In this document: piece after piece, positions 2,705 through 41,041 of the stretch | Position numbering within the stretch: the stretch's first letter is position 1 | Layout: each line of letters starts with the position of its first letter | IMG/VR virus record: IMGVR_UViG_3300049811_000649 | Coordinates: 1-42,959 of that record | DNA: 42,959 nt | Direction: 5' to 3' (one strand) | Origin: a virus | Notes under the pieces: generated by a model | Seen by the model: the letters and a program-made list of their open reading frames with translations, nothing else | Told to the model about the DNA's origin: nothing | Databases searched by the model: none | Position numbers and translations under genes: made by a program

Positions 2705-2749
2705 GGCGACAGAATGATTTAATTTAATTAAACATTTCCATTTTAAATT

Positions 2750-3155: not shown

Positions 3156-3391
3156 GTTATAAATTAATTAAAGTGATTGAAGATGGTAATGCTAAAACAT
3201 TTATTTATGAGAAAACCGATAGCCCTAAGAGAAAACCGATGGTTACTACTATATTTAAGCTTTTGTCCTGTAGTGGGATTATAGCGGTTTCAACGCTTTT
3301 AATCCTAACTTGCCTTTATGGGATTTATCTGATTTTGATTTACACTTCGGTGGTGTTAGCAAATCTTTGGAATATGTGGGGTGGGAATTGA
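3152..3391 (+). CDS. Small single-pass or hairpin membrane protein
   Basis: A 79-residue protein with ATG at 3152 overlapping the upstream stop. The N-terminal half is polar and basic (YKLIKVIEDGNAKTFIYEK), followed by about 35 hydrophobic residues (IIAVSTLLILTCLYGIYLILIYTSVVLANLW), enough for one long or two short membrane passes. It ends in MWGGN, whose last codons supply the G-rich ribosome-binding stretch for the following TTG start. Function unknown; being embedded in the tail-tip operon it may be a holin or spanin-like component. Confidence 0.5.
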   Translation: MSYKLIKVIEDGNAKTFIYEKTDSPKRKPMVTTIFKLLSCSGIIAVSTLLILTCLYGIYLILIYTSVVLANLWNMWGGN

Positions 3392-4245: not shown

Positions 4246-4433
4246 TGGAATTATTTATAATCATCAGCGTTGCTTATACTTCTTTTTCGCTTTTCTGCCT
4301 ATTGCTATTAATTTCTTTAGCTTTCTTGTCGAGATACGACGAAATTTCTAATCCCACTTCTAACGTGGTATCTATTGGCAAGTCCCCAAAATTAGGAGTT
4401 ATTCGTGTCAAAAAAAGAGCAGATTATCGCTAA
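4245..4433 (+). CDS. Small N-terminally anchored membrane protein
   Basis: A 62-residue ORF whose ATG overlaps the previous stop (TAATG at 4243-4247). Residues 2-28 (ELFIIISVAYTSFSLFCLLLLISLAFL) form one strong membrane segment or an uncleaved signal anchor, and the rest is polar with a basic end (GVIRVKKRADYR). It overlaps the NlpC/P60 start by 29 bp. No family recognised. The repeated pattern of small membrane proteins between tail-tip genes suggests that one or more serve in lysis or DNA entry. Confidence 0.5.
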   Translation: MELFIIISVAYTSFSLFCLLLLISLAFLSRYDEISNPTSNVVSIGKSPKLGVIRVKKRADYR

Positions 4434-4896: not shown

Positions 4897-6433
4897 CGAA
4901 GAGCGCCTCGATCTTGGATACGACTACGGAACGGTGGTAACGATCGCCGCTAAAACTTCGATTGTAGAAAGGGGCAACGGACGGGAGCAAAGGACGATCG
5001 ACTGGCATCATCCCTTACTGACTTTTAATGTGGGGCAGTACAGCACGATCAACGAACAGTTAGAATATTTTATTAACTTCCACAGAGCGAGGAAGGGAGC
5101 CTTTGAGGGGTTTCGGTTTAAGGATTGGTCTGATTATTTGGTGGTAAATCAGTTCTTGGCGATCGGTGATGGGGAAGTGACGGAATTTCAACTTTACAAA
5201 ACCTATCAAGTTGGCAATTGGCAAGCGCACCGTCCCATCACCAAACCAGTGGCGGAAACCTTGAGGGTGTTTTTGGATAGCGTGGAACTCACCGAGGGCT
5301 GGGAACTTGATACCACGACGGGGATACTGACCTTTGATGAGGCACCCGATGGGGAAATCTGGTTTAGTTGCGAGTTTGACGTGCCAGTGCGGTTTACCGG
5401 GGACGAAATTAACTTGAGGTTTGAGGCTTACGAGCAGGGAACCCAAAATAAGATTTTTAATTGGGAGGGGTTGACCCTACAGGAAATCAGATTGCCATTT
5501 GGCAATATCCCCGTGGCTACGATTCCGCAAAATCTCGATCACCAGATTAATCTCGGTTACGATTACGGGACGGTAGGAGGTGCTAAGTTTTCCACTCGGA
5601 TCGATGGCAGTGCCAATGGTCAGGAAGTGCGATCGAGTAATTGGTCAAGTCCGAAAGCACGGTGGGAAATCGGTCAAAGAAGCTTGCTGCTTGAAGAGTT
5701 AAAATACCTGATTTCCTTGTTTCGAGTGGCCCGGGGTCGGGCTGTACAGTTTAGTTATCTTGATCGAGCCTCAGAAACCGTTTGTCCGGTTCGCTTTGGG
5801 GAAGATAATATCGCTTTTCGGTTTGATGCTTATGACCGCTTTACGGGAGCGGCGATTTTCAATTTGTCGGGAGTGCCGTTGGTGGGGCTGCCTTTTAATA
5901 ATTTTTTTGGGATTTTAAGCGGACTTCGCTGGGAATTTCCTTGTATTGGCAGCGTGCCAAATCGCCCAGACTTGTGCCAATGTCCTCAATCTGTCAATAT
6001 CGAAACGACGCTACAAGGAGACGATTCGTTTTATTTTGTGACCTTAAGATTTAGAGGCGTGGTTGAATTAAACAGCCATTATGAAAACGGTACGGCAGAT
6101 GGGTTTTTTCAAATTGGAGGAAATGTTGGAAGCGGAAATAATGCTCAAGGGCTTAACATTTACCGATTAACAATTTCCAATCCAGCGCAAATTTATTATT
6201 TAAATAGAGGTAACCCTGTGGCTGGAAGGTTAACTGCAATTGATTACTTGGTCACAATTCCAATTTACGGAAACGCCACTGTCTCTTTAGATGCTCTTGC
6301 GGATCCAGACTTTGGGCAACAAATTGGGTCACAAATTAACAACGCTTTAAATACTTTAATGCCTGGTGTCCCACCATTCCCAAGTGCTTTTAACGGGCAA
6401 TTTCTGCAAATGGACGTGGAAAACGTTGACTAA
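4889..6433 (+). CDS. Tail-tip protein with tandem DUF2460 domains
   Basis: A 514-residue protein, ATG 4889. Two copies of a DUF2460-like domain are visible: the first begins with LDLGYDYGTVVTIAAKTSI and the second, after residue ~230, with INLGYDYGTVGGAKFSTRI. Each continues through an RGxxQ/FxxxD pattern and a matching VPVRFTGDEINLRFEAYEQ / CPVRFGEDNIAFRFDAYDR block. DUF2460 normally occurs once, in ~200-aa GTA gp12-type proteins next to DUF2163 and NlpC/P60. The C-terminal ~140 residues (from about 375: NIETTLQGDDSFYFVTLRFR) are a different, beta-rich domain encoded by visibly more AT-rich DNA, possibly a receptor-binding or glycan-contact add-on. It converges with the minus-strand tail-tip gene, 86 bp away. 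Confidence 0.75.
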   Translation: MFSEERLDLGYDYGTVVTIAAKTSIVERGNGREQRTIDWHHPLLTFNVGQYSTINEQLEYFINFHRARKGAFEGFRFKDWSDYLVVNQFLAIGDGEVTEFQLYKTYQVGNWQAHRPITKPVAETLRVFLDSVELTEGWELDTTTGILTFDEAPDGEIWFSCEFDVPVRFTGDEINLRFEAYEQGTQNKIFNWEGLTLQEIRLPFGNIPVATIPQNLDHQINLGYDYGTVGGAKFSTRIDGSANGQEVRSSNWSSPKARWEIGQRSLLLEELKYLISLFRVARGRAVQFSYLDRASETVCPVRFGEDNIAFRFDAYDRFTGAAIFNLSGVPLVGLPFNNFFGILSGLRWEFPCIGSVPNRPDLCQCPQSVNIETTLQGDDSFYFVTLRFRGVVELNSHYENGTADGFFQIGGNVGSGNNAQGLNIYRLTISNPAQIYYLNRGNPVAGRLTAIDYLVTIPIYGNATVSLDALADPDFGQQIGSQINNALNTLMPGVPPFPSAFNGQFLQMDVENVD

Positions 6434-6519
6434 TAAGGTGCGAGGCAATTTGTGAATCGGTTGAGATTTTGAGCGTGGTGCCGGTTTAGTTTGTACTCAA
6501 CGAATTTAACCCAAAACCA

Positions 6520-9500
6520 TTAATTTCTGCTTAAGTTAATAGTATTTATTTGAGATTGTGTAAGTGCGTAATCGCACACAAAAACGTTAGAGAGATTAAA
6601 ACTGTTTACACCAGCCCCCGAAAAATAGCCAAAATAAAACTTGTTTTGAGCATTAATTGAATTTATGTTATTCCCATTAGTTGATGAAGTAAGCACTGAT
6701 AATCCGTTAAGATAAATTGTTAATTGAGTGTCATTTAAGGTCAAGCATAAAAAATTTAATTCATTTAAAAATATTCTTGCGCTTGAATTATAAAAAGCAA
6801 CATTTTGTGACAAGGGTATTAAAAAATTACCAGCCCCACTTAAATTGGGGTTATTTCCAATAAATAAATTTATTTCTGCTCGAATTCCTCTGATTAATAA
6901 ACTTGCTCCAAAAACGCGCCCAAGAATTGAGTCGCTGTTTAATCTAATTAAAGCACCAATAGTAAAACTGTTAGAAAAAACATAATTACCTATTAATTGA
7001 GTGCTAAGTTCTGAAGGATTAAATTGTACGCTTTTCCCTTGTCCAGATGCAAGTAAAGAAGATTGATTTAATATGTTATTAACTCCCACGCTAGGATAAA
7101 CCAAATTTTCTCTACTGATTTGATCTACGGCTGTATTGCCGCTAGTTTCTTCTAATAGATAATAAGATATTGGATTAATAGAAAGTATTGTATTGGCAAA
7201 GTTACTAGACAAGGGCGGACCTTGTACATTGTTACTTATTTCGATTGTTATCCCTACATTGAGACAGCTATTTGAAGTAATCGAGATAAACTGAACAAAA
7301 TTATTAGGTTCAACTGTATTGTTATTAGTAAGACTAACTTTGTTTAAAACTGTCCCTACAGCTAAATTGCTTAAAATAATCGTGTTCTGCACACTAATAT
7401 TTACAGTGGCATTGCCAGAAGAACTTCTTACCGCAACACTATCGATCCGATAGGGAAATGCTGCTGCTACATCAAGCCAATATGGTTTGTTTTCTAATAC
7501 GTCAATGTGGCGAGTAATAAAAGTTTTATTACTACTATGTTGATTGTTTTCAGGTACTGTCAGACCTTGAACGATCGTGAAATCAACGGCGCTCACCCCG
7601 ACCCCCAAGGGAGCGGTGACTTTGATTTTGCCTGTGGTAGTTCCCGTGGCCACGACGGCGGTAATCGTGGTGTCGTTGACGACGGTGAAGCTTTGAGCGG
7701 CAATCTCGTTAAAACTAACGGCTGTGGCTCCCGTGAAACCCTGTCCGGTGATAGTGACTGTTATGCCCACCGCTCCCTGACGGGGGGAAAAATCGTTAAT
7801 GACCACCGTAAAAGCTTTCCCCTCAAAGACGATAATCACCGGATCCACGTCGTCTAGGGTTTGCCCTGGGGTGATCGCTTTAAAGTAGAAAGTTTTCCCG
7901 ATGTCTGTCCTTTGTACCGGGATATTGAGCTTATAGCCAGAGAGCAGGTAAAAATCTTCCCCCGCCCCGTGGGTTTGGGGTGTGCCACTGATTCCCCTAG
8001 TGAAGGGCGCGGTTAGCTGAAATATCCTATCGGTTCCCGATGTCCCCGTCAGAGCGGCATTTTGAAAGTCGAGGATTTCGTCCCCAATTAAAGCCCGATT
8101 GCGACCGGCTTCAAAAAGCGCTGAACTGATCGAGGACAGAGAAGCGTGGAAAGGGACTTGAACAGTGACGCTAGTGCCGTTAAAGGTGGTGGTACAAGTG
8201 CCGAAAACGCTTCGGGTAACGATCGTCCCCACGGGCTGATAGGTGACTCCTAGATCGATCGAATAATAAAGAAAAGCATTCCGCCATGTGGCATCGCCGT
8301 CGGCAAAAACGTAAAGCCCCGGGGTATCGGTGGGATAAGCGAGGGGAATATCCAGCACTCGCAGATCCGTCTCTGCCGGAACTGGGAGCGGGGTATCGGT
8401 GACGGGGGGTATGGGGTCGGGAACTGGTGAGGGTTCGTAGTCGGGATCCGTCTCGATAATTTCGGTGTTGTCCCACCCGTAGATAGCGGGGTTATAAAGC
8501 CACGATTTGACTAAAAGCAGGTGATTCGCCCCATATTCAAGCTGATTTATCTGTACCTGCTGAGGATTGCCCGCTATCTCCACTTCTACCACGTCGCCTA
8601 TCTCTAAATTGGCAAATCGTGGCGAAAGGGCGAATTCTTGAGTATAGGCGCGCGTCCAGGTTAGCCAGAGATTTTTGTTGACAATATCTTGCGCTTGGTT
8701 ACGGGAAAGCGCACCGGGATAATCAACGGTTTGGAGGTTGACGTGGGTAGCGGTGGGATAGGAAGGCGATCGAATGACGGCTTCGAGAAGGTTGTTATCC
8801 ACGTCAAAAAACCGAGCCTCGATCTGGGTCGGGAGTTCTGTCACTTCCTGACGGCTTTCTCGGTAGCGCCGGGGAACCTGTTCTCCCGACTCATGGGCTG
8901 CCAGTTCGGAGTTAGGCAACAATAAGCCCGCGGGTCGAAATTGGTTTTGAAATTTTAGTTTTTCGCCGTCATCAACTAAATCGAAGAAATATGCCTGCTG
9001 TAATTTGGATAAGGCTTCGGTAATAGTGGTTTGATTATCGATTTGGTAGCCCGTGACGATAATCTGGTCTAATTCGTCAGTATCTAAATCTTCAATGGTT
9101 AAATAGGGTGATTCCAAGCAAATATCTTGAATTACCGTGCTTAATGGTACGTTATCCCCGTTTCTGACCAGCGCCGAACACTGGGGGTACTGATTGTTAA
9201 ATTCGGCTAGGGGTAAATTTTCACAGACTAAAATTGTTCTATTGCGGTAAGCGATCGCTCGGTCGTTTAATTTAACTTGGAGCAGGGAATCGATCTGCTG
9301 ATTGTCCGTGCCGTTATAAATTCGGAAAGTACAGCCGCTACTGGACAAAAGGGGCGATAACTGCCCGTCTTTGTACACCAGTTTGCTGTTAAAGCGAATT
9401 TCGTCAATATTCGTGGTTTTGCCACAGAGGATAAACGCACAATTTCCCCAGTAGGTATAATTTACTTCCTCGGTGACGGTGGTGTTACTTCCGCCGCCCT

Positions 9501-9759
9501 TGCCCCCTTGGGTGGTTTCGGTGACGGTTTCCGAGACCCGTTCCTCTGGGGGAAAGTCGCCATAGATTAAGATTCCCCCCACCCGCGCCTTTCCCCAGAC
9601 CTTAGGAATTGAATCCCCAAAGCTTGATCGAGGGGTGACAAAATTCTCTATTTTTCCTTCTTCTACACGATTGACCGTGCGAATTTTCGCCGCAAAGAGT
9701 GAGGAGATGGCCGAAGCTCCAAGACTGACGGCTCCGGCGATTAAAGCACCTGTGGACAT
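6520..9759 (-). CDS. Tail-tip / host-specificity protein with TIG and LamG-like domains
   Basis: A 1079-residue protein on the strand opposite to the other tail genes. The N-terminus (MSTGALIAGAVSLGASAISSL) is hydrophobic and Gly/Ala-rich, as in many tail hub proteins. It continues with RSSFGDSIPKVWGKARVGG, WGNCAFILCG, an NIDEIRFN block and a Phage-tail_3/gpJ-like domain. A TIG/IPT fold follows (SPRQGAVGITVTITGQGFTG, about residues 650-735). The C-terminal ~230 residues (YYLLEETSGNTAVDQ, VQFNPSEL, FTIGALIRL, LTIYLNGLSVL) have the pattern of a concanavalin A-like LamG domain and are the likely receptor or glycan-binding tip. The DNA for that last part (6520 to ~7560) is markedly more AT-rich than the rest, suggesting domain exchange. 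Start ATG 9759. Confidence 0.78.
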   Translation of the reverse strand: MSTGALIAGAVSLGASAISSLFAAKIRTVNRVEEGKIENFVTPRSSFGDSIPKVWGKARVGGILIYGDFPPEERVSETVTETTQGGKGGGSNTTVTEEVNYTYWGNCAFILCGKTTNIDEIRFNSKLVYKDGQLSPLLSSSGCTFRIYNGTDNQQIDSLLQVKLNDRAIAYRNRTILVCENLPLAEFNNQYPQCSALVRNGDNVPLSTVIQDICLESPYLTIEDLDTDELDQIIVTGYQIDNQTTITEALSKLQQAYFFDLVDDGEKLKFQNQFRPAGLLLPNSELAAHESGEQVPRRYRESRQEVTELPTQIEARFFDVDNNLLEAVIRSPSYPTATHVNLQTVDYPGALSRNQAQDIVNKNLWLTWTRAYTQEFALSPRFANLEIGDVVEVEIAGNPQQVQINQLEYGANHLLLVKSWLYNPAIYGWDNTEIIETDPDYEPSPVPDPIPPVTDTPLPVPAETDLRVLDIPLAYPTDTPGLYVFADGDATWRNAFLYYSIDLGVTYQPVGTIVTRSVFGTCTTTFNGTSVTVQVPFHASLSSISSALFEAGRNRALIGDEILDFQNAALTGTSGTDRIFQLTAPFTRGISGTPQTHGAGEDFYLLSGYKLNIPVQRTDIGKTFYFKAITPGQTLDDVDPVIIVFEGKAFTVVINDFSPRQGAVGITVTITGQGFTGATAVSFNEIAAQSFTVVNDTTITAVVATGTTTGKIKVTAPLGVGVSAVDFTIVQGLTVPENNQHSSNKTFITRHIDVLENKPYWLDVAAAFPYRIDSVAVRSSSGNATVNISVQNTIILSNLAVGTVLNKVSLTNNNTVEPNNFVQFISITSNSCLNVGITIEISNNVQGPPLSSNFANTILSINPISYYLLEETSGNTAVDQISRENLVYPSVGVNNILNQSSLLASGQGKSVQFNPSELSTQLIGNYVFSNSFTIGALIRLNSDSILGRVFGASLLIRGIRAEINLFIGNNPNLSGAGNFLIPLSQNVAFYNSSARIFLNELNFLCLTLNDTQLTIYLNGLSVLTSSTNGNNINSINAQNKFYFGYFSGAGVNSFNLSNVFVCDYALTQSQINTINLSRN

Positions 9760-25818: not shown

Positions 25819-27317
25819 TGGCTAAGAAAAAGCGGAAAAACCAAGGGTCTGTTCGTCGTTACGATGGTGCTAGGCGCGATCGCTTAACGTCGGATTGGGC
25901 AACTTCTAGCACTAGCGCCGATTCGGAAATTTTTTCCGCTTTAAGGCTTTTGAGAGATCGTTCTAGGGATTTAGTACAAAATAACCCTTATTTAAAATCA
26001 GCCATTTACAAAACAATACCCAATAACGTGGTTGGCCAAGGTTTGAGTTTTCAAAGTCAGGTAAGGCGTAAGCGTATTGACAAACTTGACGACTCTGTAA
26101 ACACCCAAATTGAAGAGGCTTGGAAAGAATGGCAAGAAGAGCCTAAATGGTGTCACACGGCTGGGAAATTAAGTCTGTCGGAAATTGAACGTTTAGTAAT
26201 CAAAAGCTTAGTGGAATCGGGAGAGGTGTTAATCCGAAAAGTAAGTCAAGCGTTTGATGATTCGCCGGTTCCTTTTGCTTTGGAAGTAATTGAAGCCGAT
26301 CAACTGTGCGAAACCCACGCTTACAACAGTTACCAGGGTAATCAGGTAAAGATGGGTGTGGAATTAAACGAGTGGCAACGACCAATCGCCTATCATCTGT
26401 ATCCTTACCATCCCGGAGACAGTGGCTTTTTTAGAGCTAGTTACAACACCCGTTTGCTACGGGTGGAAGCAGAAGAAATCATCCATCTATTTATTAGCGA
26501 TCGCCCAGGGCAAACGAGAGGAGTACCTTGGGTTCATTCAACGATAGGCAAATTAAGACAATTAAACGGCTATGAAGAGGCCGAGGTAGTTGCCGCAAGG
26601 ATTCAAGCCGCTATCGCCGCTTTTGTGCAATCTCCTGACCCCGACAATTTAGCAAGTCCTCACCCAGAAACCGGCGAACGTTTGAAGGATTTAGAGCCGG
26701 GGGTAATCGAGTATTTAGCACCAGGGGAGACATTAGCGTCTTTTATCCCCACACGACCCAATCAAGGATTTGATGCTTTTGTCAGGGCGATGCTCAGGGG
26801 CGCAGCGGTATCCATGGGTGTATCTTACGAAGGCTTTACCGGCGACTTTTCTAATACTTCCTACTCAAGCGCTCGCACGGCTCTACTGTCTGAACGAGAT
26901 TGTTACAAGGTAATGCAAGCTTGGTTAATTCAAAATTTTCACCGGCCTATTTTTAAGGAGTGGCAACAATTGGCCGTTTTATCGGGAAGGCTGAATTTTC
27001 AAGATTTTTTTCAAGATCGTCATCGTTACTGCAAGCCTAAATTCACCGCGCGGGGTTGGGATTGGGTCGATCCCTTGAAAGAAACCAATGCCAACAAAGT
27101 GGCCGTGGAATCCGGGTTTAAAACCTTAACCGATATAGCGGCTGAATCGGGTCGTGATTTTGAGGAACTGGTAAAAACCCGCCGTCGGGAATTGGACTTA
27201 ATGGCCGCTTACAACATCAATTTTGATAGTCAGCCAAGCCCCCCAGAGCCTCTGATCTTAGATGAAAAATCATGGCGGCAAAAAAACCAACAGTTAGCAA
27301 TTAGGAGACAGCAATAA
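25818..27317 (+). CDS. Portal protein (lambda family)
   Basis: A 499-residue protein of the lambda-type portal family. Visible signatures: a basic N-terminus, RDLVQNNPYLKSAIYKTIPN, NNVVGQGLSFQSQ, VIEADQLCETHAYNSY, IIHLFISDRPGQTRGVPWVH, and RGAAVSMGVSYEGFTGDFSN followed by YSSARTALLSERDCYK. The dodecameric portal forms the DNA channel at the capsid vertex and docks terminase and connectors. Length fits (lambda gpB 533 aa). Its stop overlaps the protease-capsid start (TAATG). Confidence 0.95.
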   Translation: MAKKKRKNQGSVRRYDGARRDRLTSDWATSSTSADSEIFSALRLLRDRSRDLVQNNPYLKSAIYKTIPNNVVGQGLSFQSQVRRKRIDKLDDSVNTQIEEAWKEWQEEPKWCHTAGKLSLSEIERLVIKSLVESGEVLIRKVSQAFDDSPVPFALEVIEADQLCETHAYNSYQGNQVKMGVELNEWQRPIAYHLYPYHPGDSGFFRASYNTRLLRVEAEEIIHLFISDRPGQTRGVPWVHSTIGKLRQLNGYEEAEVVAARIQAAIAAFVQSPDPDNLASPHPETGERLKDLEPGVIEYLAPGETLASFIPTRPNQGFDAFVRAMLRGAAVSMGVSYEGFTGDFSNTSYSSARTALLSERDCYKVMQAWLIQNFHRPIFKEWQQLAVLSGRLNFQDFFQDRHRYCKPKFTARGWDWVDPLKETNANKVAVESGFKTLTDIAAESGRDFEELVKTRRRELDLMAAYNINFDSQPSPPEPLILDEKSWRQKNQQLAIRRQQ

Positions 27318-29233
27318 TGGTTACAACAGTTAACACCTTCCCGGTCAATAAAATAATGACGCGAGAATTTAGCGTCAAACTTTCACCCGTAGAAAATAAC
27401 AAAAACCTTTTAGAATTTTCTTTTTCCTCAGAAGAACCGGTGGATCGCTGGTTTTTTAAGGAAGTTCTTAGCCACGATCCAGAATCTGTGGATTTTAGTC
27501 GAGTATCGGGGATGAACTGGCTTTGGAATCACAATATGGATGTGGTTTTAGGTAAGGTTGAGAAGATTTGGTTAGCAGAGGATCGCCGCGCTTACTGTCA
27601 GGTGAGGTGGTCAAAAAAAGACTCGATCGCCGAATATCGTCAGGACGTGGAAGACGGCATTTTAACTAATGTTTCTTTTATGTACGAAGTTCAAGAGTAC
27701 GAGCGAATGGCAACGGGTGAAAAAGATGACGATTATCCTACCTATGTCGGGAAAAAGTGGAAAATTTACGAAGTGAGCTTAGTTTCGGTTCCAGCCGATG
27801 CAAGCGTGGGTATCGGTCGGGCGCTTCTTGAACCAGTCGCTCATGGGGGGAACCACGCTGGTTCGCTGTCCACATTTACTGTAGGAAAGCCGGAATCAGG
27901 AGCAACAGAAGTGACAGAAGCGGTAACTATTGAGCAAATCCGAGAACAGGAAAAGAATCGAGTTAAGGAACTTTTGGCAATTGGGGAATCTTTTAAGATG
28001 CCCGATCTGGCCACGCAATTAATTAACGACGGGACTTCCTTGGATAATGCCCGTAAAATATTCTTAGAAAAAGTTAAACCGGGGCAAGCACCGATCGCCC
28101 GTCCCGTTGATACGTCCCTTGGTATGAGCCACGGCGAACAAAAATCCTATTCACTCTTAAAAGCTTTGCGAGCGATCGCTTATGGCGGGAATTACCTCAA
28201 GGAAGCAAGTTTCGAGATGGAAGTCTCGGAAGCTTTAAGTAAAAAGATGGGTCAACCGCTTACCAGCGAGCGATCGTTCCTTTTGCCCGTGGGAGATTTA
28301 AAAGTAAATCCCAAGACTCAAAAACGGGATTCCCTGTTAGCAGGGACGGCTAACCTAGGGGGCAATATCGTTGACACGGATCTAAGGGAGCAGGATTTTA
28401 TTGAACTGCTCCGTAATCAAATGATGGTTCAGCAGTTGGGCGCTCGAATGCTCACGGGTTTAGTGGGGCCGGTAACAATTCCCACTCAAGCCACGGCTGG
28501 TCAGTCCTACTGGGTGGGAGAAGGTGAAGATGTGACCGAAAGTAATATGACTTTTGGTCAGATTTCTTTGGCTTTAAAGACCGTGGGGGCGATTCAACGC
28601 TACACCCGTGAGTTAATGATGCAATCTGATCTATCTGTGGAAAATCTTATCCGTGAGGATATTTCTCAGATTTTGGCTTTATCGTTAGATCGGGCGGCTT
28701 TAGCGGGAACTGGAACCAGCAACCAACCCCGGGGAATTCTAAATACTTCTGGTATTGGTTCTGTGGCTTTGGGAACCAATGGCGGTCAACCTACTTGGGC
28801 AGCGATAGTTAACGTCACCAAGGCGATTAAAAAAGCTAATGCCATGCTCGGAGAAATTCAATGGCTTGGTAACGCTGATGTGGAATCAAAACTGATGACC
28901 ACCCCCAAACAAGCGAGCGGCGTGGAAGGTAATTTTATTTTGTCTGACCCGGGTAACGGCGATCTGCGTTTACGGGGCTATCGTTTTTATTCTAGTGAGC
29001 AGGTTCCCAGTAACCTCACCAAAGGCACGGGGACGGGGTTAAGCGCCCTAATCGCCGGGGTTTGGTCACAGCTAATTATTGGCCAGTGGGGAGTTCCCGA
29101 AATTCAAGCGAATATCTACAGCGATCAGGTGTGGGGTTCGGGGGCGGTGTCGATTAGGGGGCTAATGTCCGCCGATATCGTTTTGCGTCACCGCCCCTCA
29201 TTTGCTGTTATCACCGATATGATTACCACTTAA
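27317..29233 (+). CDS. Prohead protease fused to HK97-fold major capsid protein
   Basis: A 638-residue fusion. Residues ~12-170 are an HK97 prohead protease (U35): SGMNWLWNHNMDVVLGKVEK (H72), TNVSFMYEVQEY (S120) and WKIYEVSLVSVPADASVGIG (E152). A variable, charged, mostly helical linker (~175-270, EVTEAVTIEQIREQEKNRVK) takes the place of scaffold/delta domain. From ~275 to the end is the capsid protein: RDSLLAGTANLGGNIVDTDL, ARMLTGLVGPVTIPTQATAG, LDRAALAGTGTSNQPRGILN, SIRGLMSADIVLRHRPSFAV. Protease and capsid are usually separate genes; fusions are known in some HK97-like phages. No stop or frameshift separates the parts, so self-cleavage should release mature capsid subunits. Confidence 0.92.
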   Translation: MVTTVNTFPVNKIMTREFSVKLSPVENNKNLLEFSFSSEEPVDRWFFKEVLSHDPESVDFSRVSGMNWLWNHNMDVVLGKVEKIWLAEDRRAYCQVRWSKKDSIAEYRQDVEDGILTNVSFMYEVQEYERMATGEKDDDYPTYVGKKWKIYEVSLVSVPADASVGIGRALLEPVAHGGNHAGSLSTFTVGKPESGATEVTEAVTIEQIREQEKNRVKELLAIGESFKMPDLATQLINDGTSLDNARKIFLEKVKPGQAPIARPVDTSLGMSHGEQKSYSLLKALRAIAYGGNYLKEASFEMEVSEALSKKMGQPLTSERSFLLPVGDLKVNPKTQKRDSLLAGTANLGGNIVDTDLREQDFIELLRNQMMVQQLGARMLTGLVGPVTIPTQATAGQSYWVGEGEDVTESNMTFGQISLALKTVGAIQRYTRELMMQSDLSVENLIREDISQILALSLDRAALAGTGTSNQPRGILNTSGIGSVALGTNGGQPTWAAIVNVTKAIKKANAMLGEIQWLGNADVESKLMTTPKQASGVEGNFILSDPGNGDLRLRGYRFYSSEQVPSNLTKGTGTGLSALIAGVWSQLIIGQWGVPEIQANIYSDQVWGSGAVSIRGLMSADIVLRHRPSFAVITDMITT

Positions 29234-32263: not shown

Positions 32264-35200
32264 ATGGCGCGAGATTATTCTGGTTTTAAGGCAGTTGTTG
32301 AGGCGATCGACACTTTACGAGAAAAAGTAGAAATCGAAAACAACAAACAGCTAACGGTGACTCGCGCCCTCCGTGAGGATCAGCGCTTACAGTTGCCCCT
32401 GCTGCGTTCCGTGGCGCAATCTCTGCGAGCAAGGGGGGCGGGTATTCGCAATAATTTAACGGCGGTTCCTGACCGGGTAGAATTTAGTAATTTAAAGCTA
32501 CAGACTAATTCGATTACTTTATCGGCTAAATCGGTTGTTTTAGAAACAAACGGTAAAGGTGGAGATAGAAGAGAAAGCCAAGATAATGAGCGATTGGCTA
32601 AATCAATCGGGAAGGAGCTTAAAAATATTAAGCTTAAAAGCGATACAGGGTTAAAATTAATTTTTGCGGGAATATTCACTGGAATTGGGTTTCAGATTGG
32701 GGGCGAAATTGCCCGGGGATTTGAAAAATCTTTTGGACAAAAAACAGGATTTACTTCTAGAAAAGCAGGGCAAGCTGTTGGCGACGTTGCTGCATTTCCT
32801 GTAGAAAAAATACAGTCTTTAAAGTTTCCAGAAAAATTAAAAGAATCTGCTGATTATTTTGTTGCAAAAATTAAAAGTATTCGTTACGGAATAGGAGAAG
32901 CTTTAGCAAGTGCAATCGAACAAGACGGGGATTTTTCAACTAAAGCACAAACCTTTGGGGAGATTTTACAAACAGAAGGGAAAAAATTTTCCAATCAAAT
33001 TAACGACGATTTAAATGACAGTGCTGAAAACTTTATTAAATCATTACAGGAAATACCTAGTTTATTAACTTCTCCTTTAGATTCTTGGTTAAGAAGCTTT
33101 AGACAAGAGGCATTAAAAGACATAGGAGTTAATTTAGTCAAGGAAAGAGCAGCTGTTATTTCTAAGGAGAATAAAAGACGAAGTTCTGTTAGAGCTATTG
33201 ACGATAAAACAGAAGAATTAATTATTGCAGTTGGTGGGTACGCTGGTGCTAGGGGTTTATCAGGACAAAGAATTCCCAAGATTTTATTAGAACAAACCGA
33301 GGATAATGTAGCGGCAATTGCTGTTAATAATCCTTCTACGGATATTCCCGGTGAAGTCTTGTCCGATCGAGAAAAGCGATGGAAGGCAACGCTAGGAAGT
33401 GTTGCCCGACCTAATATTAGGGGATATTCTCCCGATGCGATTGAAATGGCCGCTCAAGCAATGGCCGCTTTACAAAAAAATCCTGAAATAAAAATTAGAC
33501 TGGTGGGAGAAAGTGGCGGCGGTTTTGTTGCGGAAGAAGCTACGGCTTTATTAAATTTATTAGGTTATAAGGATCGAGTTGTCGGTGTTGGAATTGGGAC
33601 TCCTGATTTAATTGGTGGGTTAGAGCAAGAAAATTATAGAAAAATTATTTCTCCCGATGAGCCGCTTGGCCATGTCGCTGAAGAGTTACAAAAATTTGGA
33701 TTAGCTAAAAAAACAGAAGATCAACAAATAAAAGGAGCTACTCAGCATCCTATTGAAGGTTATATTAATTTGCCAGAAATTCGCAAGAATTTGTTTGGTG
33801 ATTCTGAAACAACAGCAGGAGAATCTAGAAAAGTTTTAGAATTTGTCGAATTTAATACTAAAGCGGCGGAAAAAGCTAATACAGAAGGTGGGAAAAAATA
33901 TTACAAAGGTCAATTTGAAGCAAATTTAAAAGAGGTTCAAGATCGGATTCAAAAAGCGACAGGTAAAACTGTTTTAAAAAATCTTAAACAAGCGGAAATT
34001 TTATTACAGTCTGCTTTGCAAAAATTAGAGGCACCTGCAGCGAGCGAGCCAAAGGATTTAAAAATATTAGACAAATACATCTTATATCTCGATCAATTAG
34101 TCGAGCAAGCCAAAAAAGAAGCCTCCGAGCGAATTAAAATTCTTGTCCCTAATTATTCTGATTTAACTATTCCAGAAAAAAAAGTCTTTGCCGGAAACTT
34201 TAGCAAAGACATTGATAAAGATATTAAAAAATTTCGCATGGCTGTTGAGGATTCCGAGAACGAAATAGCTGTGGAAATTGGGGAAAGAATCCTAGAAACA
34301 ATTCAGCCAATTCGCAAAATTTATCAAGAGTTATTAGAAATTCTGCCTCCTGATTTAAGTGGGACTCAATCAATCAGAGCGCAAATAGGAAAGCTTACCA
34401 AAATACAAAATGAGGTTTTAAAGGGACAGCCAAAGGTAAAAGGAAACTCACCAATAGGTCTAACTCAAATTGTTGGCAACGAAACCGCCGAGGGATTTGT
34501 GGCAGGAATTGAGGAAAAATTAGGCGATGTTAATGCCAGTGGTGAACAGTTAGGAGAAGAAGCAATTAAGGGGGCTAAAGAGCGTTTAGATATTGCCTCA
34601 CCTTCTAAGGTATTTGAAAAATTAGGAATACAAACAGGGGAAGGTTTTGAGCAAGGAGCGAAAAAATCTTTAACGAAAGCGTCAGCAACTATTAAAAAAG
34701 AAATTGAGGATTTTATTTATGCGATTGGAAATCGTCTAAAAATGGTCGATTCCGATTCATCAGGACTCAACCAAAAAGATTTAATTGAGACTTGGTTTTT
34801 AGGCGTTACACCTTTTAACGATTCTGACAGAATTGTAGAATCAGTACAGTTAGAATCGCAACGATTATCAAGGGGGGGGAAAAAGAAAAATGTAACGGGA
34901 TTTGATGAAAGTATTAAAGCAATTCAAGCTCGACTTAAAACGCTTCACTCAAACATTTCTCGTTTTGAGGAATTAATCGTATTAAACGAAGTATATATTC
35001 GAGCTTGGGAGCGAGTATCAAGAGGCATTAAAAACACAAAAATGCCTGTAATTGACAGTTCTGAGATGGAGCTTAAATCTACTCGTGCTTTCTATAAACC
35101 TAGCAACCACACAGTTAAATTTGACAAGTCAATTATAAAAAATATTGGATCACAAGTTTTTCTGGGCGAAGATTTATCAACAATATTGCACGAGTTAAGG

Positions 35201-38200
35201 CATTCTATTCAAGACGAAATAGAAGACAGGTTAGCTAACGTAGAACAAGTTTTAAATAGCAAAATATCCAAAAAAAGAAAACAAAGAATTTTAGAAGGTG
35301 CAAAATCGAGTAATAATTCAGCTTTAAGTCAATGGGAGAACGTATTTCAATCTCCTTATCCAGAATCAAGAAAGCAAAAGAATTATCAGCGTGAAATTGA
35401 TGCCTATTTCTATGATACTAAAAACTTTTTTAGCTTTAGAAGTCGCATAGAAAAAGAGTTTAGGAATATTGGCACTGCTGCTGTAGAAGGTTTTACTTCT
35501 GGGGTAAACAGTCAAAAAGAAGTAGCTATTGATGTTATTGCTACGGTAATTGATGATGTCGTTGAAACGACCGAAGATATACTAGGAATTCAATCCCCTT
35601 CTAAGGTATTTGAGCAAATTGGGGCTTTTGTGGTAGAAGGGTTTAACAAAGGTGTAGAAAAAGTTAAACAAGTAGAATTTTTAAATAATTTTGCTACAAA
35701 TGCTCAACAACAGATTGATTCTACCAAGGAAGTTATTAACCAAGGACTAGATCAGGTTGTTGACGCTTACGAAAATAAATTTACTACTGTTGATAACTTT
35801 TTAGCTAACACCTTTAATAATATTTATGACGGGTTTAATCAATTAGTTGAGGGATTGTTTGAGCAGTTCCCCGCCTTAAAACAATTGGTTGATATATTCT
35901 TAGGGCTTGGGGCTGGTTTTTTAGTCGGTCAAGCCTTAGAGGGGTTGGTGGGTTGGTTGTCTGGTGTAGCAGATGCGACCTTTGATGCCGTGCTACAAGC
36001 TGAATCTTTAGAACTTGCTTTTACCTCTCTTAGTGGCGGTGCCGAACAGGGTGCCAAAGGATTAGCCTTTGTCAGGCAAGAAGCCCAAAGGTTGGGATTA
36101 GAACTAAAAACCGCGGAAGAAGCCTACGCCGGCTTTACCGCCGTCACCCGGTTTACTCCGTTACAAGGATTTCAAGCAGATAAAATATTTAGTTCTTTTG
36201 CCGAAACCGCCGCGTTGAGGGGATTTTCTTCTGAGGAACAGTCGCGGATGTTTGCCGCGATAAATCAGATGATTTCAAAAAGAAAGCTGTCCGCCGAAGA
36301 GGTGCGTGGCCAGTTGGGAGAAATATCTGGTTTAGCCTTTGAGTCAACCCTAGCCAGAGCTTTAGGTTTAAATGCCGCTCAAATGAACGAACAAATGAGC
36401 GAAGGATTGCTGATCGTGGAAGACGTGCTTCCTAAAGTTGCCGCTCAATACGCCGCTCAAAATTCGGCTATCGCAACGGGTAACGAAACGTTAGCTCAAA
36501 GTTTAAATCGCTTAAATAACGCAGTTGTAACCTTACAAAGGTCTTTTGCCAGTTGGATAGAAAAATTTAAAATTGCTTTCAATGTAGCCACAGCAGTAGT
36601 GGAAAATTTAATTCCCGCTATAGAACTGTTTATTAAAGCTCTTTCTAATGCTGGTTTAACTATATTTTTAGATACTTTAGAATCATTGATTAAATATGGT
36701 CTTAAATCTAATGCTGTTTTAAGTGTTTTTGTTAATTTCCTAAAAGCTGTAGCGTCTCTAATTCAGTATGCAATCCCTCACTTAGTCGAGTTTGCTGGTA
36801 AATTTATTTTAGTTTCCCTTGCAGTTGATTCTTTGTGGAATGCTTGGAAAATATTTCAAAATAATCCTTTTCCAGGATTAAGCAAAAGTATTGAAGATGC
36901 GACGGCAAATGTAAGAGCTTTAGAGCAAGCTTTAAACAAAACGGCTGCGGCTACTCAATCGGTTAGTCTGCCTAAATATGAAGATTTAAAAGTAAAAGAA
37001 GGCTGGAATTTATTCGGAATTGACACAGGGATTAATCTTGAAGGATTGCGGGCAATGACCGCAAGGCAAATTTATAATCCTCGCACGGGAAAAACTGAAA
37101 CCTATGGTGGTACGACTTTAGCTCAATCTAATTTAGGTAGATTTCAAGAGCAAGTAGCGGATCGGTTAGCAAAAGCCGATCAAACTTTATTTCAACAACC
37201 AGAGGTTGAAAAAACTTTAAAAAACATTCAAGAATTAGACAAGGAATTAACCAAGGCTCGTTCTCGTCGTTTTCAAATACCGGCAGGAGACCGTACAGCC
37301 TATGAAGAATCAGTGGCGGCCGAACAGAAGCTCTTAGAACAGCGAGATGAGTATCTCAAAACCACCGCTCAATTTCAGCAGAACTTAGAAGCCGATAAAA
37401 ATGCAATCACCGAGGCAATTAAGTTGTTAGACGGGTTAGTCGCCCGACGGGAAATTACAGCCGATGCTGAGAAATCCCTGCGCGCTTCCCTAGAGGCAAG
37501 ATTAAAGGATGTAGAGACCACCTCTCGAACCTTTGAAGATTTGGCTTCTACCCTAGCCAAACAGGTGAACGCACTCTCGATCGCCCTGCGTAACTTAAAT
37601 GAAAACGCAACTTTCTTTAACGAGAACTTGGAGCGCACCGCCACTAATGCCCGTGTGCAATTTATCCGACGGGCAAGAGAGGCAGGGTTAGGCTCACAAA
37701 TTGCAGACGCGGGCATTGAGCAGATCGAAACTCAAACCTTAGACACACGCCTAGGATTTTTGCGTGACCAGTTGGGAGCCGTTAACGAATACCTTTCTAA
37801 ACCCGATTTTGCCGATTTATTAGAAGAATTGCGGCAACAGGCTGAAGATGCCGGAATTAATCTGGAAAACACCGCCACAATTGATCGCTTAATCGGGGAA
37901 AATCGTTCTCAACAGGAAACGGCGGTTTTAAATGCCCTGAAAGAACAGTTACGCCTAAAAACCGAGATTGGGCAAACTGAGGAGAATTTAGAGCAGTCTA
38001 TCCGACAAATGGGGTCAAATTTGCGTGACCTAAGCAGCTCGGTAGAGGACTTCTTTTTCAATTTAAATCAGCAGATACAGGAGGCGCTAGTAGAAGTCGA
38101 TCGCCTATTGAATAAGTTAAAGTATGCCGATATCAAGGGCAAACTACAAAGAGCGCTCGTTCCTGGATCGGATACTTTCGTTAACGGGCTGGTGTCGCAA

Positions 38201-41041
38201 ATTCAGGGGATTTTCGATCAAGCCTCTGGCATTGTTGAACAGTTATTAGGTCAGCGATCGGCGCGGATTAATTTCGTTGGGGAGCGGCGCGGCTTACAGT
38301 TTGAGTTAGAGAATTTTACTCGTAACTTGGGCGGGGCGACGGAAGCCCTAGAGCTTTTCCGTCAGGGCTTGGTGGGGTCGGGGCAAGTTCAGGCTCCTAG
38401 CAATAATATTCTCCCAGTTCCAAAAGCCCCCGCAAGCGGCCAAGGGAAATTGCCGCCGCCGCCCCCCGCAATGGGGTTAAGGCAAAATATAGGGAATTTA
38501 ACAGATGCTCGCTCCTTTGCCCCTCTTTTTGACCTCCTTTTTAAAGGAGAAGGTAACGAAAATTCTGTTAATCGTGGAGTGGCCGGGGATACACCAGGGG
38601 GACTGAGAGCGCTTTTTGGACGGGATGCAGCACAGTTTACGGTGGGAGAAATTCTTAATTTACAAAAACAGCGCCGCATCTTTGCCGTGGGGATGCCGCA
38701 ATTTATCCCCTCTACTCTTCGCGATGCGGTTAAAAATTCAGGGATTTCTCTTGATACCCCTTTTAATCTGCAAACCCAACAAAAATTAGCGATCGAGCTT
38801 TTCAAAAATAAGCGCCCAGAGATTTGGAAATATTTAAGTGGCAAATCAAATAATTTAATCGAAGCGGCTCAAGGCATGGCCAGAGAATGGGCGGCCATTG
38901 GATTATCCTATCCCGAAGCAGGTCGAGGGGTTGGGGTTAGTCGTTATGCCGGAACTGCTGGAAACGCGGCAAGTATTAGCCCCCAACAGGTTCAACAGGC
39001 ATTAATTCAAACTAGACAAAATTTAACGGGGACAAACGGGGGAAATCTAGAAACGGCATCGGCACAATTACCAAATGTTAATAACGAACAGGCAACCAAT
39101 TTAACCAACACCTTGATCGGCATTAAAAACCGACAAATTAACCTAGGCGACGCTACAGTTCGGCAGGAAATAGAGAATTTTATCCTTAATCTCAATCAAA
39201 CTAAGGAGACAATTCTCCAGCAGATGGGCGACACTATTCGTCAGAGCCGGCAATCGGTGGTTGATGCTCAAAATTCTTTAATTGACGCAAGATCGCAGTT
39301 TTCCCCTCAAACCCAAACCTCTCAATTAGAGTCGGAATTGCGCGGGGTAGAAAATCAATTCCGAGGCCTTGATACTCAGCTATTCGAGCAGGAAAGGGGA
39401 CTACAGGATAATATTACAGGGTTAGATAAGTTACTGTCCGAAATTCAGCCAATTATCGAGTTATTGCAGTCCTCTGGCAATGCCGTCGATCAAGAATCAG
39501 CCAAATTTTTACAAGGACTGATCGGAAAAATTGAAAGCGATCGCACTTCCTATCAAGGAATGCTTACAGAAATTCAAGGACTAAGAGGTGAACTCAAACA
39601 AGGCAAAATTGACGCTGAAAACTTTGTGCAAGCGCAAGCCAAGCTTAGAAGGATTCAGGCTGACCTGGAACGAATCGGCACGGAATTAACGATCGCCCAA
39701 CAGCAAAATAATCTCGAACAGGAACGAGCGATCGCTCTCTTGCAATCTAGGCAGCAGTTAGAAGCGGACATTCTCCAAATCAGCAACGATTTTGCCGATA
39801 ACGAAACCGAACGCACCCGACGGCTTGAACTGGCACGGGAGCAAGCACGTTTACAAGAAAAAGAAATTGAGTATCAATTCCAGTCAAAAACCTTGACCAG
39901 AGAAATTGAGTTAATCAATCAAAGGTTAGCGATCGCTCAAAACCTAACCAATTTGGGTATAACCAACGAATTACAGATCAGGCAATCCCAGAAACAGCTA
40001 GAACAGGAAATCCTCGAAATCAAACAGCAGTATCCTGACTTAGCTGAACAGGAGTTGCGGATCGAGTTGGCCAAACAATCTGCTTTACAAAGGGAAAGAC
40101 AGATCGAGAACGAATACCGAAACCAACGGTTACAGCGAGAACAAGAGATACTCGACATTGAGAACCAAATCGCCGAACGGTTGGCTGAACAGTTAGAGGC
40201 AAGGGGCGATAATTTTGCCGCCGCTTCCCTGCGAGAACAGGCGGCTTTTGCGGCTGAACTCTTACGGTACGAGCAGGAAATCGAAGCGATCCGACAACGC
40301 TACCCCGACGACCAGCAACGGGCTGACGAATTGATCCGCAAGGCGACGACCCTAAGAGATTTAAACCTGAGTGCTATTGATCGGCAGTTTCAAGATTTGG
40401 GCGAAACTTTGCGGGGCTTGGCTACCGATTCCTTTGCCACTTTCCTAACCGATGTTTTGACAGGATCAAAGTCGATTGGTGATGCCTTTGCTGATATGGC
40501 CAAAAATATTCTCGCTTCTATTGCTCAAATAGCGGCGCGAATGGCTATCTCTGGTTTATTCAATTGGCTAAACATCGGATTTGCCGAAGGTGGGACGGTT
40601 CCCAATTTTGCCGAAGGTGGGGAAGTTCGGAAAAATTTACCGATTTTAGATAGTATCCAATCGGCTTTACAAAGCGAGGGGCCGCGAGGAGTTCTGGCAG
40701 TGTTCACCCCAGGAGAGGAAATTTTAAGCCTTCGCACTGGGGAAGCCCAACGCTACCAAAGCTTAAAGGCTAAATTCGGAAAAGACCCGCTTAAACAGTT
40801 TGCTGGTAATTTCGCTTTCGGTGGATCGGTCAGCGATCGCTTGCTAGATAATCTTGCTCCTACCCCGTCGGTAACGTTGCCAATTTCGGCACAATTCGAT
40901 CTGACCAATTCAAAAGCTACCCCGCCGATGGCCAATAATAAGACCGTGGTGGTTAACGTCACCACGCCCGATGTGGCGGGCTTCAAAAAATCCGAGCGAC
41001 AAATTGCCCGGGAGGTTTACGAATATATGCAGCGAGCCTAA
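32264..41041 (+). CDS. Giant tape measure protein with embedded enzyme-like domains
   Basis: A 2925-residue protein that should set tail length and be ejected into the host. In order: basic N-terminus with a Gly-rich hydrophobic segment (~129-150); an alpha/beta-hydrolase-like domain (~316-510; AVGGYAGARG, RLVGESGGGF with S417, GIGTPDLIGG, SPDEPLGH); an IASPSKVFEKLG motif at ~777-788; a zincin-like domain (~800-1060; ILHELRHSIQDE with H976, E977, H980 and QREIDAYFYD with E1044); a second SPSKVFEQIG at ~1111; the conserved tape-measure domain (~1245-1400); membrane segments (~1460-1530); coiled coils; a lysozyme-like domain (~2085-2245; FKGEGNENSVNRG with E2096, VGMPQFIPSTL); Gln/Glu coiled coils (~2290-2720); and a lambda-like C-terminus with FAEGG repeats. 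The ATG directly follows the T stop. Confidence 0.9.
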   Translation: MARDYSGFKAVVEAIDTLREKVEIENNKQLTVTRALREDQRLQLPLLRSVAQSLRARGAGIRNNLTAVPDRVEFSNLKLQTNSITLSAKSVVLETNGKGGDRRESQDNERLAKSIGKELKNIKLKSDTGLKLIFAGIFTGIGFQIGGEIARGFEKSFGQKTGFTSRKAGQAVGDVAAFPVEKIQSLKFPEKLKESADYFVAKIKSIRYGIGEALASAIEQDGDFSTKAQTFGEILQTEGKKFSNQINDDLNDSAENFIKSLQEIPSLLTSPLDSWLRSFRQEALKDIGVNLVKERAAVISKENKRRSSVRAIDDKTEELIIAVGGYAGARGLSGQRIPKILLEQTEDNVAAIAVNNPSTDIPGEVLSDREKRWKATLGSVARPNIRGYSPDAIEMAAQAMAALQKNPEIKIRLVGESGGGFVAEEATALLNLLGYKDRVVGVGIGTPDLIGGLEQENYRKIISPDEPLGHVAEELQKFGLAKKTEDQQIKGATQHPIEGYINLPEIRKNLFGDSETTAGESRKVLEFVEFNTKAAEKANTEGGKKYYKGQFEANLKEVQDRIQKATGKTVLKNLKQAEILLQSALQKLEAPAASEPKDLKILDKYILYLDQLVEQAKKEASERIKILVPNYSDLTIPEKKVFAGNFSKDIDKDIKKFRMAVEDSENEIAVEIGERILETIQPIRKIYQELLEILPPDLSGTQSIRAQIGKLTKIQNEVLKGQPKVKGNSPIGLTQIVGNETAEGFVAGIEEKLGDVNASGEQLGEEAIKGAKERLDIASPSKVFEKLGIQTGEGFEQGAKKSLTKASATIKKEIEDFIYAIGNRLKMVDSDSSGLNQKDLIETWFLGVTPFNDSDRIVESVQLESQRLSRGGKKKNVTGFDESIKAIQARLKTLHSNISRFEELIVLNEVYIRAWERVSRGIKNTKMPVIDSSEMELKSTRAFYKPSNHTVKFDKSIIKNIGSQVFLGEDLSTILHELRHSIQDEIEDRLANVEQVLNSKISKKRKQRILEGAKSSNNSALSQWENVFQSPYPESRKQKNYQREIDAYFYDTKNFFSFRSRIEKEFRNIGTAAVEGFTSGVNSQKEVAIDVIATVIDDVVETTEDILGIQSPSKVFEQIGAFVVEGFNKGVEKVKQVEFLNNFATNAQQQIDSTKEVINQGLDQVVDAYENKFTTVDNFLANTFNNIYDGFNQLVEGLFEQFPALKQLVDIFLGLGAGFLVGQALEGLVGWLSGVADATFDAVLQAESLELAFTSLSGGAEQGAKGLAFVRQEAQRLGLELKTAEEAYAGFTAVTRFTPLQGFQADKIFSSFAETAALRGFSSEEQSRMFAAINQMISKRKLSAEEVRGQLGEISGLAFESTLARALGLNAAQMNEQMSEGLLIVEDVLPKVAAQYAAQNSAIATGNETLAQSLNRLNNAVVTLQRSFASWIEKFKIAFNVATAVVENLIPAIELFIKALSNAGLTIFLDTLESLIKYGLKSNAVLSVFVNFLKAVASLIQYAIPHLVEFAGKFILVSLAVDSLWNAWKIFQNNPFPGLSKSIEDATANVRALEQALNKTAAATQSVSLPKYEDLKVKEGWNLFGIDTGINLEGLRAMTARQIYNPRTGKTETYGGTTLAQSNLGRFQEQVADRLAKADQTLFQQPEVEKTLKNIQELDKELTKARSRRFQIPAGDRTAYEESVAAEQKLLEQRDEYLKTTAQFQQNLEADKNAITEAIKLLDGLVARREITADAEKSLRASLEARLKDVETTSRTFEDLASTLAKQVNALSIALRNLNENATFFNENLERTATNARVQFIRRAREAGLGSQIADAGIEQIETQTLDTRLGFLRDQLGAVNEYLSKPDFADLLEELRQQAEDAGINLENTATIDRLIGENRSQQETAVLNALKEQLRLKTEIGQTEENLEQSIRQMGSNLRDLSSSVEDFFFNLNQQIQEALVEVDRLLNKLKYADIKGKLQRALVPGSDTFVNGLVSQIQGIFDQASGIVEQLLGQRSARINFVGERRGLQFELENFTRNLGGATEALELFRQGLVGSGQVQAPSNNILPVPKAPASGQGKLPPPPPAMGLRQNIGNLTDARSFAPLFDLLFKGEGNENSVNRGVAGDTPGGLRALFGRDAAQFTVGEILNLQKQRRIFAVGMPQFIPSTLRDAVKNSGISLDTPFNLQTQQKLAIELFKNKRPEIWKYLSGKSNNLIEAAQGMAREWAAIGLSYPEAGRGVGVSRYAGTAGNAASISPQQVQQALIQTRQNLTGTNGGNLETASAQLPNVNNEQATNLTNTLIGIKNRQINLGDATVRQEIENFILNLNQTKETILQQMGDTIRQSRQSVVDAQNSLIDARSQFSPQTQTSQLESELRGVENQFRGLDTQLFEQERGLQDNITGLDKLLSEIQPIIELLQSSGNAVDQESAKFLQGLIGKIESDRTSYQGMLTEIQGLRGELKQGKIDAENFVQAQAKLRRIQADLERIGTELTIAQQQNNLEQERAIALLQSRQQLEADILQISNDFADNETERTRRLELAREQARLQEKEIEYQFQSKTLTREIELINQRLAIAQNLTNLGITNELQIRQSQKQLEQEILEIKQQYPDLAEQELRIELAKQSALQRERQIENEYRNQRLQREQEILDIENQIAERLAEQLEARGDNFAAASLREQAAFAAELLRYEQEIEAIRQRYPDDQQRADELIRKATTLRDLNLSAIDRQFQDLGETLRGLATDSFATFLTDVLTGSKSIGDAFADMAKNILASIAQIAARMAISGLFNWLNIGFAEGGTVPNFAEGGEVRKNLPILDSIQSALQSEGPRGVLAVFTPGEEILSLRTGEAQRYQSLKAKFGKDPLKQFAGNFAFGGSVSDRLLDNLAPTPSVTLPISAQFDLTNSKATPPMANNKTVVVNVTTPDVAGFKKSERQIAREVYEYMQRA

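Follow-up and report, generated by a model that had tools for sequence, protein, structure and literature searches.

A predicted gluzincin-type zinc peptidase domain in the tape measure protein of a cyanobacterial siphovirus

The tape measure gene and its parts

The window (the whole stretch of DNA analyzed here, 42,959 nucleotides, positions 1 to 42,959 of IMG/VR virus record IMGVR_UViG_3300049811_000649) derives from a cyanobacterial siphovirus. It encodes a 2925-aa tape measure protein (TMP), identified by its core domain, its length, and its place in the gene order after the tail chaperone. The protein matched Pfam TMP_3 at 1.4e-16 as well as tape measure families in PHROG, and the upstream genes for a major tail protein (phrog_807) and a chaperone (phrog_1442) fit this assignment. 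Coordinates of all features are provided in Table 1.

An HMM built from the hydrophobic segment of the window protein showed that a segment of this type is common to most related TMPs. The alpha/beta-hydrolase-like domain, for which the window copy had no Pfam match, contains an invariant His in a GATQHPIEGY stretch. Part of the region at aa 2085-2255 was 50.9% identical to a protein of Synechococcus phage S-CAM7. This region is presumably lysozyme-like, a label that we base on one matched record (P-RSM6) that is named endolysin, and on general knowledge.

Table 1 Features of the tape measure gene in the window
Feature	Residues (aa)	Position (nt)	Strand	Basis or remark
TMP gene	2925 aa	32264..41041	+	One intact ORF
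Hydrophobic, glycine-rich N-terminal segment	128-175	32645..32788	+	HMM built from window segment
Alpha/beta-hydrolase-like domain	312-512	33197..33799	+	GESGGG at aa 415-420
SPSKVF unit 1	737-798	34472..34657	+	Repeat alignment, homolog matches; SPSKVFEKLG at aa 779-788 (34598-34627), then GEGFEQG at aa 792-798
Predicted gluzincin-type zincin domain	~905-1064	34976..35455	+	HMM, shuffles, models
HELRH	976-980	35189..35203	+	Two predicted zinc-binding His and predicted catalytic Glu
Glu of REIDAY	1044	35393..35395	+	Predicted third zinc ligand
SPSKVF unit 2	1069-1130	35468..35653	+	Repeat alignment, homolog matches; SPSKVFEQIG at aa 1111-1120 (35594-35623), then VEGFNKG ending at aa 1130
TMP_3 core domain	1245-1428	35996..36547	+	Pfam
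Lysozyme-like region	2085-2255	38516..39028	+	

SPSKVF units and probable insertion history

A sequence-only reading of this DNA had described two SPSKVFExxG motifs near residues 779 and 1111, each followed by a GEGF or VEGF stretch, with HELRH between them, and all of these were found (motifs at aa 779 and 1111, HELRH at aa 976-980). Alignment of aa 737-838 with aa 1069-1161 gave a Smith-Waterman score of 103; the scores of 1000 shuffles averaged 34 and reached 68 at most. By this comparison, the two units are a genuine repeat.

The same reading had regarded the zincin as a domain inserted into a duplicated unit and had suggested looking for homologs with a single SPSKVF unit and no zincin. 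Seven such zincin-free proteins (L201, L202, L203, G289, G014, G085, and G356) each aligned with the two window units at just one location; the zincin and the second unit were therefore probably inserted in the window lineage. This arrangement is real in the window, but it does not define the layout of zincin-bearing TMPs. SPS[KR]VF flanked a zincin on both sides in just two of 19 zincin-bearing genes, those of the window and of G392; several of the other sequences are truncated at contig or ORF ends. TMPs without SPSKVF also carry the domain, in every case upstream of TMP_3, and SPSKVF flanks were rejected as a zincin hallmark.

Sequence evidence for the zincin in the window

An HMM built from 13 IMG/VR zincins matched the TMP at 3.9e-10, and the next best of the 254 window ORFs scored 0.43. 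The match was gone once HELRHSIQ was masked. When the flanks were shuffled and the motif was kept, none of 2000 shuffles reached the real score of 42.0 bits (mean 12.0, sd 3.4, maximum 30.8 bits). Taken together, masking and shuffling indicate that the flanks add real similarity, yet are not detectable alone, and that the window domain is, at the level of sequence similarity, more than a chance HELRH. Other motifs of the domain are STRAFY at aa 939 and, downstream of HELRH, REIDAY at aa 1043-1048.

The window zincin is a divergent family member. Its nearest relative is 19% identical, and it lacks alignment residues N81 and G123, each otherwise near-invariant (19/20). These features would fit a copy that is catalytically dead or serves purely as a structural spacer, left over from an active family. 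The intact ORF nevertheless retains every residue predicted to bind metal or to take part in catalysis, and we consider this reading very unlikely.

The window domain had no match to Pfam PF20573 (DUF6782) in a profile scan, whereas other family members matched weakly. Phages and plasmids searched by tblastn contained no match to the zincin region of the window, and phages none to four other family zincins. Searches for related loci with single window proteins found none. A PDB sequence search with the zincin returned nothing significant (best E-value 0.49, 1.6 with the A3 alignment); the best entry (0.49), a virion RNA polymerase, aligned at an HELVH stretch.

Distribution and conservation of the family

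The family was found in 19 TMP-type genes: the window, six from cyanobacterial genomes, and 12 from IMG/VR contigs. The H, E, and H of HExxH were invariant in all 20 aligned domains, as were the downstream Glu and an Ala at the third position after it (E..A). A lack of HExxH conservation had been named beforehand as grounds for abandoning the zincin; the opposite was seen, and together with the HMM match these invariant residues support a zincin-type domain.

The zincin lies N-terminal to TMP_3 in 15/15 ORFs holding both, at widely varying positions relative to it. Two copies are present in G392, L170, and G199b, the G199b pair being split over two ORFs of apparently one broken gene. The order of parts in these TMPs is constant: the N-terminal hydrophobic segment, then one or more enzyme domains (zincin and/or alpha/beta hydrolase), and then the TMP_3 core. 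Divergence of the zincin tracked that of TMP_3 across 15 ORFs (Mantel r 0.85), but after three near-duplicates were dropped, r fell to 0.46 (12 ORFs, p 0.014). Since the higher value came largely from near-duplicates, no strong co-divergence is claimed.

PF20573 was weakly matched by 12/14 members of the A3 alignment (best 1.1e-5) and matched by 3/7 members of the A2 alignment (best 3.5e-7). A PHROG scan of the 14 A3 members matched four families with one member each (best 0.0012); lacking a good match there, the zincin domain tends to be missed by phage annotation.

Beyond these genes, 16 of the 73 scanned stretches gave weak zincin matches only (1e-4 to 7e-3, in ORFs of 96-380 aa, left uncounted), and 45 gave none. 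The A2 profile weakly matched nine further genomes (2.8e-6 to 8.2e-4), none counted as TMP. Five of these nine loci were covered, with G022, G056, G274, and G296 left out: G316, G079, G063, and G117 had EEIGH and no HExxH, and G364 had a 2968-aa ORF with HExxH motifs. Of 50 genomes from the family to which G001 belongs, one matched the N-terminal part of the window TMP, over a short stretch (aa 737-811, 2.4e-6).

Predicted fold

A representative family zincin (L195) was modeled with a pLDDT of 93.8 and a pTM of 0.90. The model runs from an N-terminal helix through three strands to the HExxH helix and the Glu helix (helix 2-22; strands 34-37, 46-49, and 54-57; helices 59-67, 72-87, 107-122, and 129-164). 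HExxH lies on helix 72-87, and the downstream Glu, the predicted third ligand, on helix 129-164. The 50 structural neighbors listed had Z scores of 4.9-7.2 (best 7.2), and all of these listed matches are, as we take it from their titles and from general knowledge, zincins. Foldseek returned no E-value ≤ 0.001 for L195. As modeled, the representative has a zincin fold.

The AF2 model of the window zincin was of moderate confidence (mean pLDDT 66), with HExxH on helix 90-122. Structure comparison placed mostly zincins among its top matches; non-zincin entries were also present in the VIA-align and Foldseek lists, at worse ranks.

Proposed role of the zincin

We interpret the TMP zincin as occupying an optional slot for enzymes in a protein that is ejected, by analogy with the zincins of polyvalent proteins. 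That the window keeps HExxH and E..A despite its divergence, and that copy number varies, supports an optional module. Specifically, the N-terminal arm would carry a small gluzincin-type zinc peptidase domain (HExxH plus downstream Glu) that forms part of the ruler while in the tail, exits together with the TMP upon DNA ejection, and then cleaves a protein on the host side; the target would be a protein of the host envelope or cytoplasm, or else the TMP arm once it has emerged. We give this proposal an even chance. Delivery with the DNA is inferred from TMP biology, TMPs being described in the available text of PMC10721106 and PMC10770324 as proteins that exit the tail and form a channel; zinc binding, peptidase activity, and the substrate are likewise predictions.

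For the window copy, the missing N81 and G123, its model at a mean pLDDT of 66, and the loss of sequence support upon masking of HELRHSIQ count against a host-side role.

The zincin could instead cut the TMP during tail maturation or assembly. The predicted catalytic residues are conserved, TMP processing is described as common in the available text of PMC1796659, and self-cleavage before ejection has a precedent in P1 DdrB, which, according to the portion of PMC5512222 at hand, has an MPTase of the same kind and is thought to be cut by it before packaging. That source also describes the N4 virion RNA polymerase, with its MPTase, as packaged unprocessed. Eight of 10 distinct hydrolase TMPs share the N-terminal arm and the core but have no zincin, which means that assembly cannot in general depend on zincin cleavage, and the location of the domain with respect to TMP_3 differs widely among TMPs. 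Self-processing in assembly is possible but less favored, given that close homologs lack the zincin, and we judge it unlikely.

Self-cleavage might also occur only after ejection, releasing into the host the N-terminal arm, here with its alpha/beta hydrolase. That domains come free after injection has been proposed (PMC5512222, in the part available), and both the window and G436 carry the hydrolase followed by the zincin. These two are, however, the only ones of the 19 zincin-bearing genes (some sequences cut) in which the hydrolase was seen, so hydrolase release cannot be the general role; we regard self-cleavage after ejection as decidedly unlikely. A host-side target is favored over self-cleavage because the zincin is optional and most zincin TMPs have no recognized partner enzyme to release.

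More broadly, TMPs of cyanobacterial siphoviruses may hold an enzyme slot between the hydrophobic segment and TMP_3 in which gluzincins and hydrolases are swapped, doubled, and lost, the ruler thereby delivering early effectors. We advance this tentatively, at somewhat under even. If true, the ruler would be the siphophage counterpart of podophage ejection proteins with embedded zincins. TMPs are usually regarded as rulers and channels, and a recurrent peptidase-type domain would make proteolysis one more function that a siphovirus delivers along with its DNA. The domain, with its conserved site, is present in numerous phages, including several that reside in cyanobacterial genomes, and the Glu of HExxH offers a defined residue for asking where TMP cargo acts: in assembly, in ejection, or in the host.

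Comparison with known systems

The literature text available to us that pairs tape measure proteins with zincins placed no zincin in a TMP; searches there found no mention of DUF6782, and nothing for crAss together with zincin. DUF6782 is a putative metallopeptidase family, and the window domain itself does not match it.

The TMP of Thermus phage P23-45 (gp96; NC_009803) is likewise giant, and its N-terminal part includes a fused enzyme, a virion RNA polymerase according to the available text of PMC10770324. Gp96 has an annotated metallopeptidase domain; HExxH is absent from its 5002 aa, a peptidase-like GPHLH motif is found at aa 3244, and with no profile match either, kinship was rejected. 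We take GPHLH to be of M23 type. The TMP of mycobacteriophage TM4 also bears an accessory enzyme motif, which aids infection and is dispensable for viability, but that motif is a peptidoglycan hydrolase and not a zincin (PMC1796659, as far as its text was available). The N4 virion RNA polymerase is described as injected and as carrying a zincin, and as packaged unprocessed (available portions of PMC8472413 and PMC5512222).

The nearest likeness is to the MPTases that Iyer et al. (2017; PMC5512222, from the text available) describe in polyvalent proteins of phages and conjugative elements and sort into 12 clades. Shared with these are an HExxH helix, a Glu in the next conserved helix, and a three-stranded sheet with an N-terminal helix, and the L195 model has this fold order of N-terminal helix, three strands, HExxH helix, and Glu helix. 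None of the Pfam families named for polyvalent-protein MPTases was among the matches listed, and the paper's main text never mentions "tape measure". Polyvalent-protein MPTases likewise sit inside giant delivered proteins beside unrelated enzymes, sometimes in more than one copy, but the carrier differs, being here a TMP with a TMP_3 core.

Genomic setting of the tape measure protein

The ORF of the tape measure protein (TMP) was found to be unbroken, and the SPSKVF and HELRH motifs were located within it where the sequence-only reading had placed them. The gene is preceded by those for a major tail protein and a tail assembly chaperone. The virus record (42,959 bases) is covered entirely by the window, and its host is probably a Microcystis-like cyanobacterium, since the UbiA gene is ~90% identical to Microcystis homologs. 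The TMP gene is near the right end, well away from this gene and the baseplate genes, and Phage-tail_3 is encoded on the opposite strand, so the record may represent a rearranged or permuted prophage. G+C was low (33-43% per 100-codon block) across TMP aa 100-1200 and higher in most other blocks, which hints at a separate history for the entire N-terminal arm, beyond the zincin alone.

Features of the window and of its TMP
Feature	Window position	TMP residues	Observation
Left end	1077-9759		Host-like UbiA gene; baseplate genes Gp84_N, DUF2460, Phage-tail_3
Capsid ORF	27317-29230		Single ORF, major capsid protein fused to S78-type prohead protease
TMP ORF (+)	32264-41041	1-2925	
Alpha/beta-hydrolase-like domain	33197-33799	312-512	Also present in 9 further distinct TMPs, from cyanobacterial genomes and IMG/VR contigs
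SPSKVF unit 1		737-798	
Zincin		~905-1064	HELRH at 976-980
SPSKVF unit 2		1069-1130	
TMP region	38516-39028	2085-2255	aa 2088-2251 are 50.9% identical to a Synechococcus phage S-CAM7 protein; weaker match, P-RSM6, annotated endolysin

Search for relatives

The window zincin returned no match as a direct query (tblastn in phages and plasmids; related-locus searches). Relatives were found in cyanobacterial genomes reached via UbiA loci, using the TMP N-terminal part (aa 1-1218) as query; this matched in 6 of 386 genomes, one of which (G392) carries two HExxH domains. Within the order to which G392 belongs, a three-row zincin profile matched in 5 of 291 genomes (ORFs 988-3414 aa); across the phylum, a seven-row profile matched in 11 of 386, of which only those of G392 and G199 were counted as TMPs. 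The genomes covered by the profile searches were cyanobacterial. IMG/VR was scanned with a degenerate DNA pattern for HE[LIF]RHA.Q (73 stretches), and 12 contigs with 13 domains matched the zincin HMM at 1.6e-15 or better (ORFs 378-3550 aa).

Conservation of the zincin family

Conservation of HExxH, on which the earlier proposal depended, was borne out: H, E, H and a downstream E and A were identical in 20/20 aligned domains (19 plus the window), the IMG/VR rows having been preselected by a pattern that itself requires H, E, R, H, A and Q, so that only residues outside it provide independent evidence in those rows. Positions P58, Y76, N81 and G123 were each kept in 19/20, the window copy being the sole row without N81 and G123. 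The HMM of the 13 IMG/VR domains matched the window TMP at 3.9e-10, and none of 2000 flank shuffles retaining the HELRHSIQ core attained the real score. Because masking HELRHSIQ abolished this match, the window copy is, by sequence comparison, a distant family member. Cyanobacterial proteins at L124, L125 and L126 have an N-terminal domain weakly matching the zincin profile, with EEIGH instead of HExxH.

Predicted structure

The AF2 model of the window domain (with 13 IMG/VR rows) was moderate (pLDDT 66), and that of the family representative L195, from the same 14 sequences, was excellent (pLDDT 93.8, pTM 0.90). Foldseek against the PDB gave no significant E-value (best 0.28); its top 18 rows comprised jannalysin/selecase, IrrE/PprI, deuterolysin and one M. 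tuberculosis transcriptional regulator with no peptidase in its title. The best VIA-align Z was 7.2 among the 50 entries listed, all of which we take to be zincins by title (M1-type aminopeptidases, selecase, abylysin, IrrE/PprI, the VgrG2b effector domain, Wss1-type proteases, leukotriene A4 hydrolase, ArdC and others). Single Z-scores are middling; the uniform neighbour list argues for a predicted zincin fold.

Domain order and insertion history

The zincin was N-terminal to the TMP_3 core in all 15 ORFs holding both. Three IMG/VR ORFs (L154, L178, L163) have no TMP_3 within the visible stretch, and G537 has it in the following ORF, separate from the zincin. Zincin-bearing TMPs at L121 (G199:C69) and L102 (G537:C135) are each broken into two ORFs, and are possibly decayed prophages or assembly errors.

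The hydrolase is a companion in the same TMP arm, outside the zincin family. GxSxGG and His are invariant in its alignment (A4), single members of which matched Pfam Thioesterase (5.9e-06), PGAP1 and Abhydrolase_6; the best match in a PDB sequence search was a family 5 carbohydrate esterase (0.0024). Merging L204 with G289 and L206 with G199a, pairs whose ORFs and contigs agree in length, 10 distinct hydrolase TMPs were counted, and only two (window and G436) also contain the zincin. Among the eight zincin-free TMPs, six have one SPS[KR] unit (G289, G014, G085, L201, L202, L203) and two have none (G199a, L205).

The zincin had been proposed as an insertion between two SPSKVF repeats of a duplicated TMP unit, and zincin-free homologs with one unit were indeed found: both window units align to a single site in these six TMPs and in G356. 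In the simplest history suggested by these alignments, the zincin and second unit would have entered a single-unit ancestor together, perhaps by recombination between units.

Possible role and comparison with known systems

PMC10721106 describes TMPs as channel-forming proteins that exit the tail, the C-terminus of the lambda TMP being at the tip; a region N-terminal to the TMP core would thus leave the tail late. That giant ejected proteins can contain zincins is already well established. According to PMC8472413 and PMC5512222, the zincin-containing N4 virion RNA polymerase is injected and is unprocessed at packaging; for P1 DdrB, by contrast, processing precedes packaging (PMC5512222). Roles proposed for such zincins in PMC5512222 are autoprocessing, domain release or host targets. 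For the TMP zincin, whose activity is putative, self-processing had been suggested; we consider a role as cargo more plausible than a cut required for assembly, because its presence is optional and both its copy number and its distance from TMP_3 are variable.

The literature searches made on tape measure proteins with zincin, metallopeptidase or protease domains turned up no prior description of TMPs carrying a family of gluzincin-type peptidases, and PHROGs held no good match to the zincin family. Enzymes within TMPs are already known: a peptidoglycan hydrolase in TM4 (PMC1796659) and an RNA polymerase plus metallopeptidase domain in P23-45 (PMC10770324).
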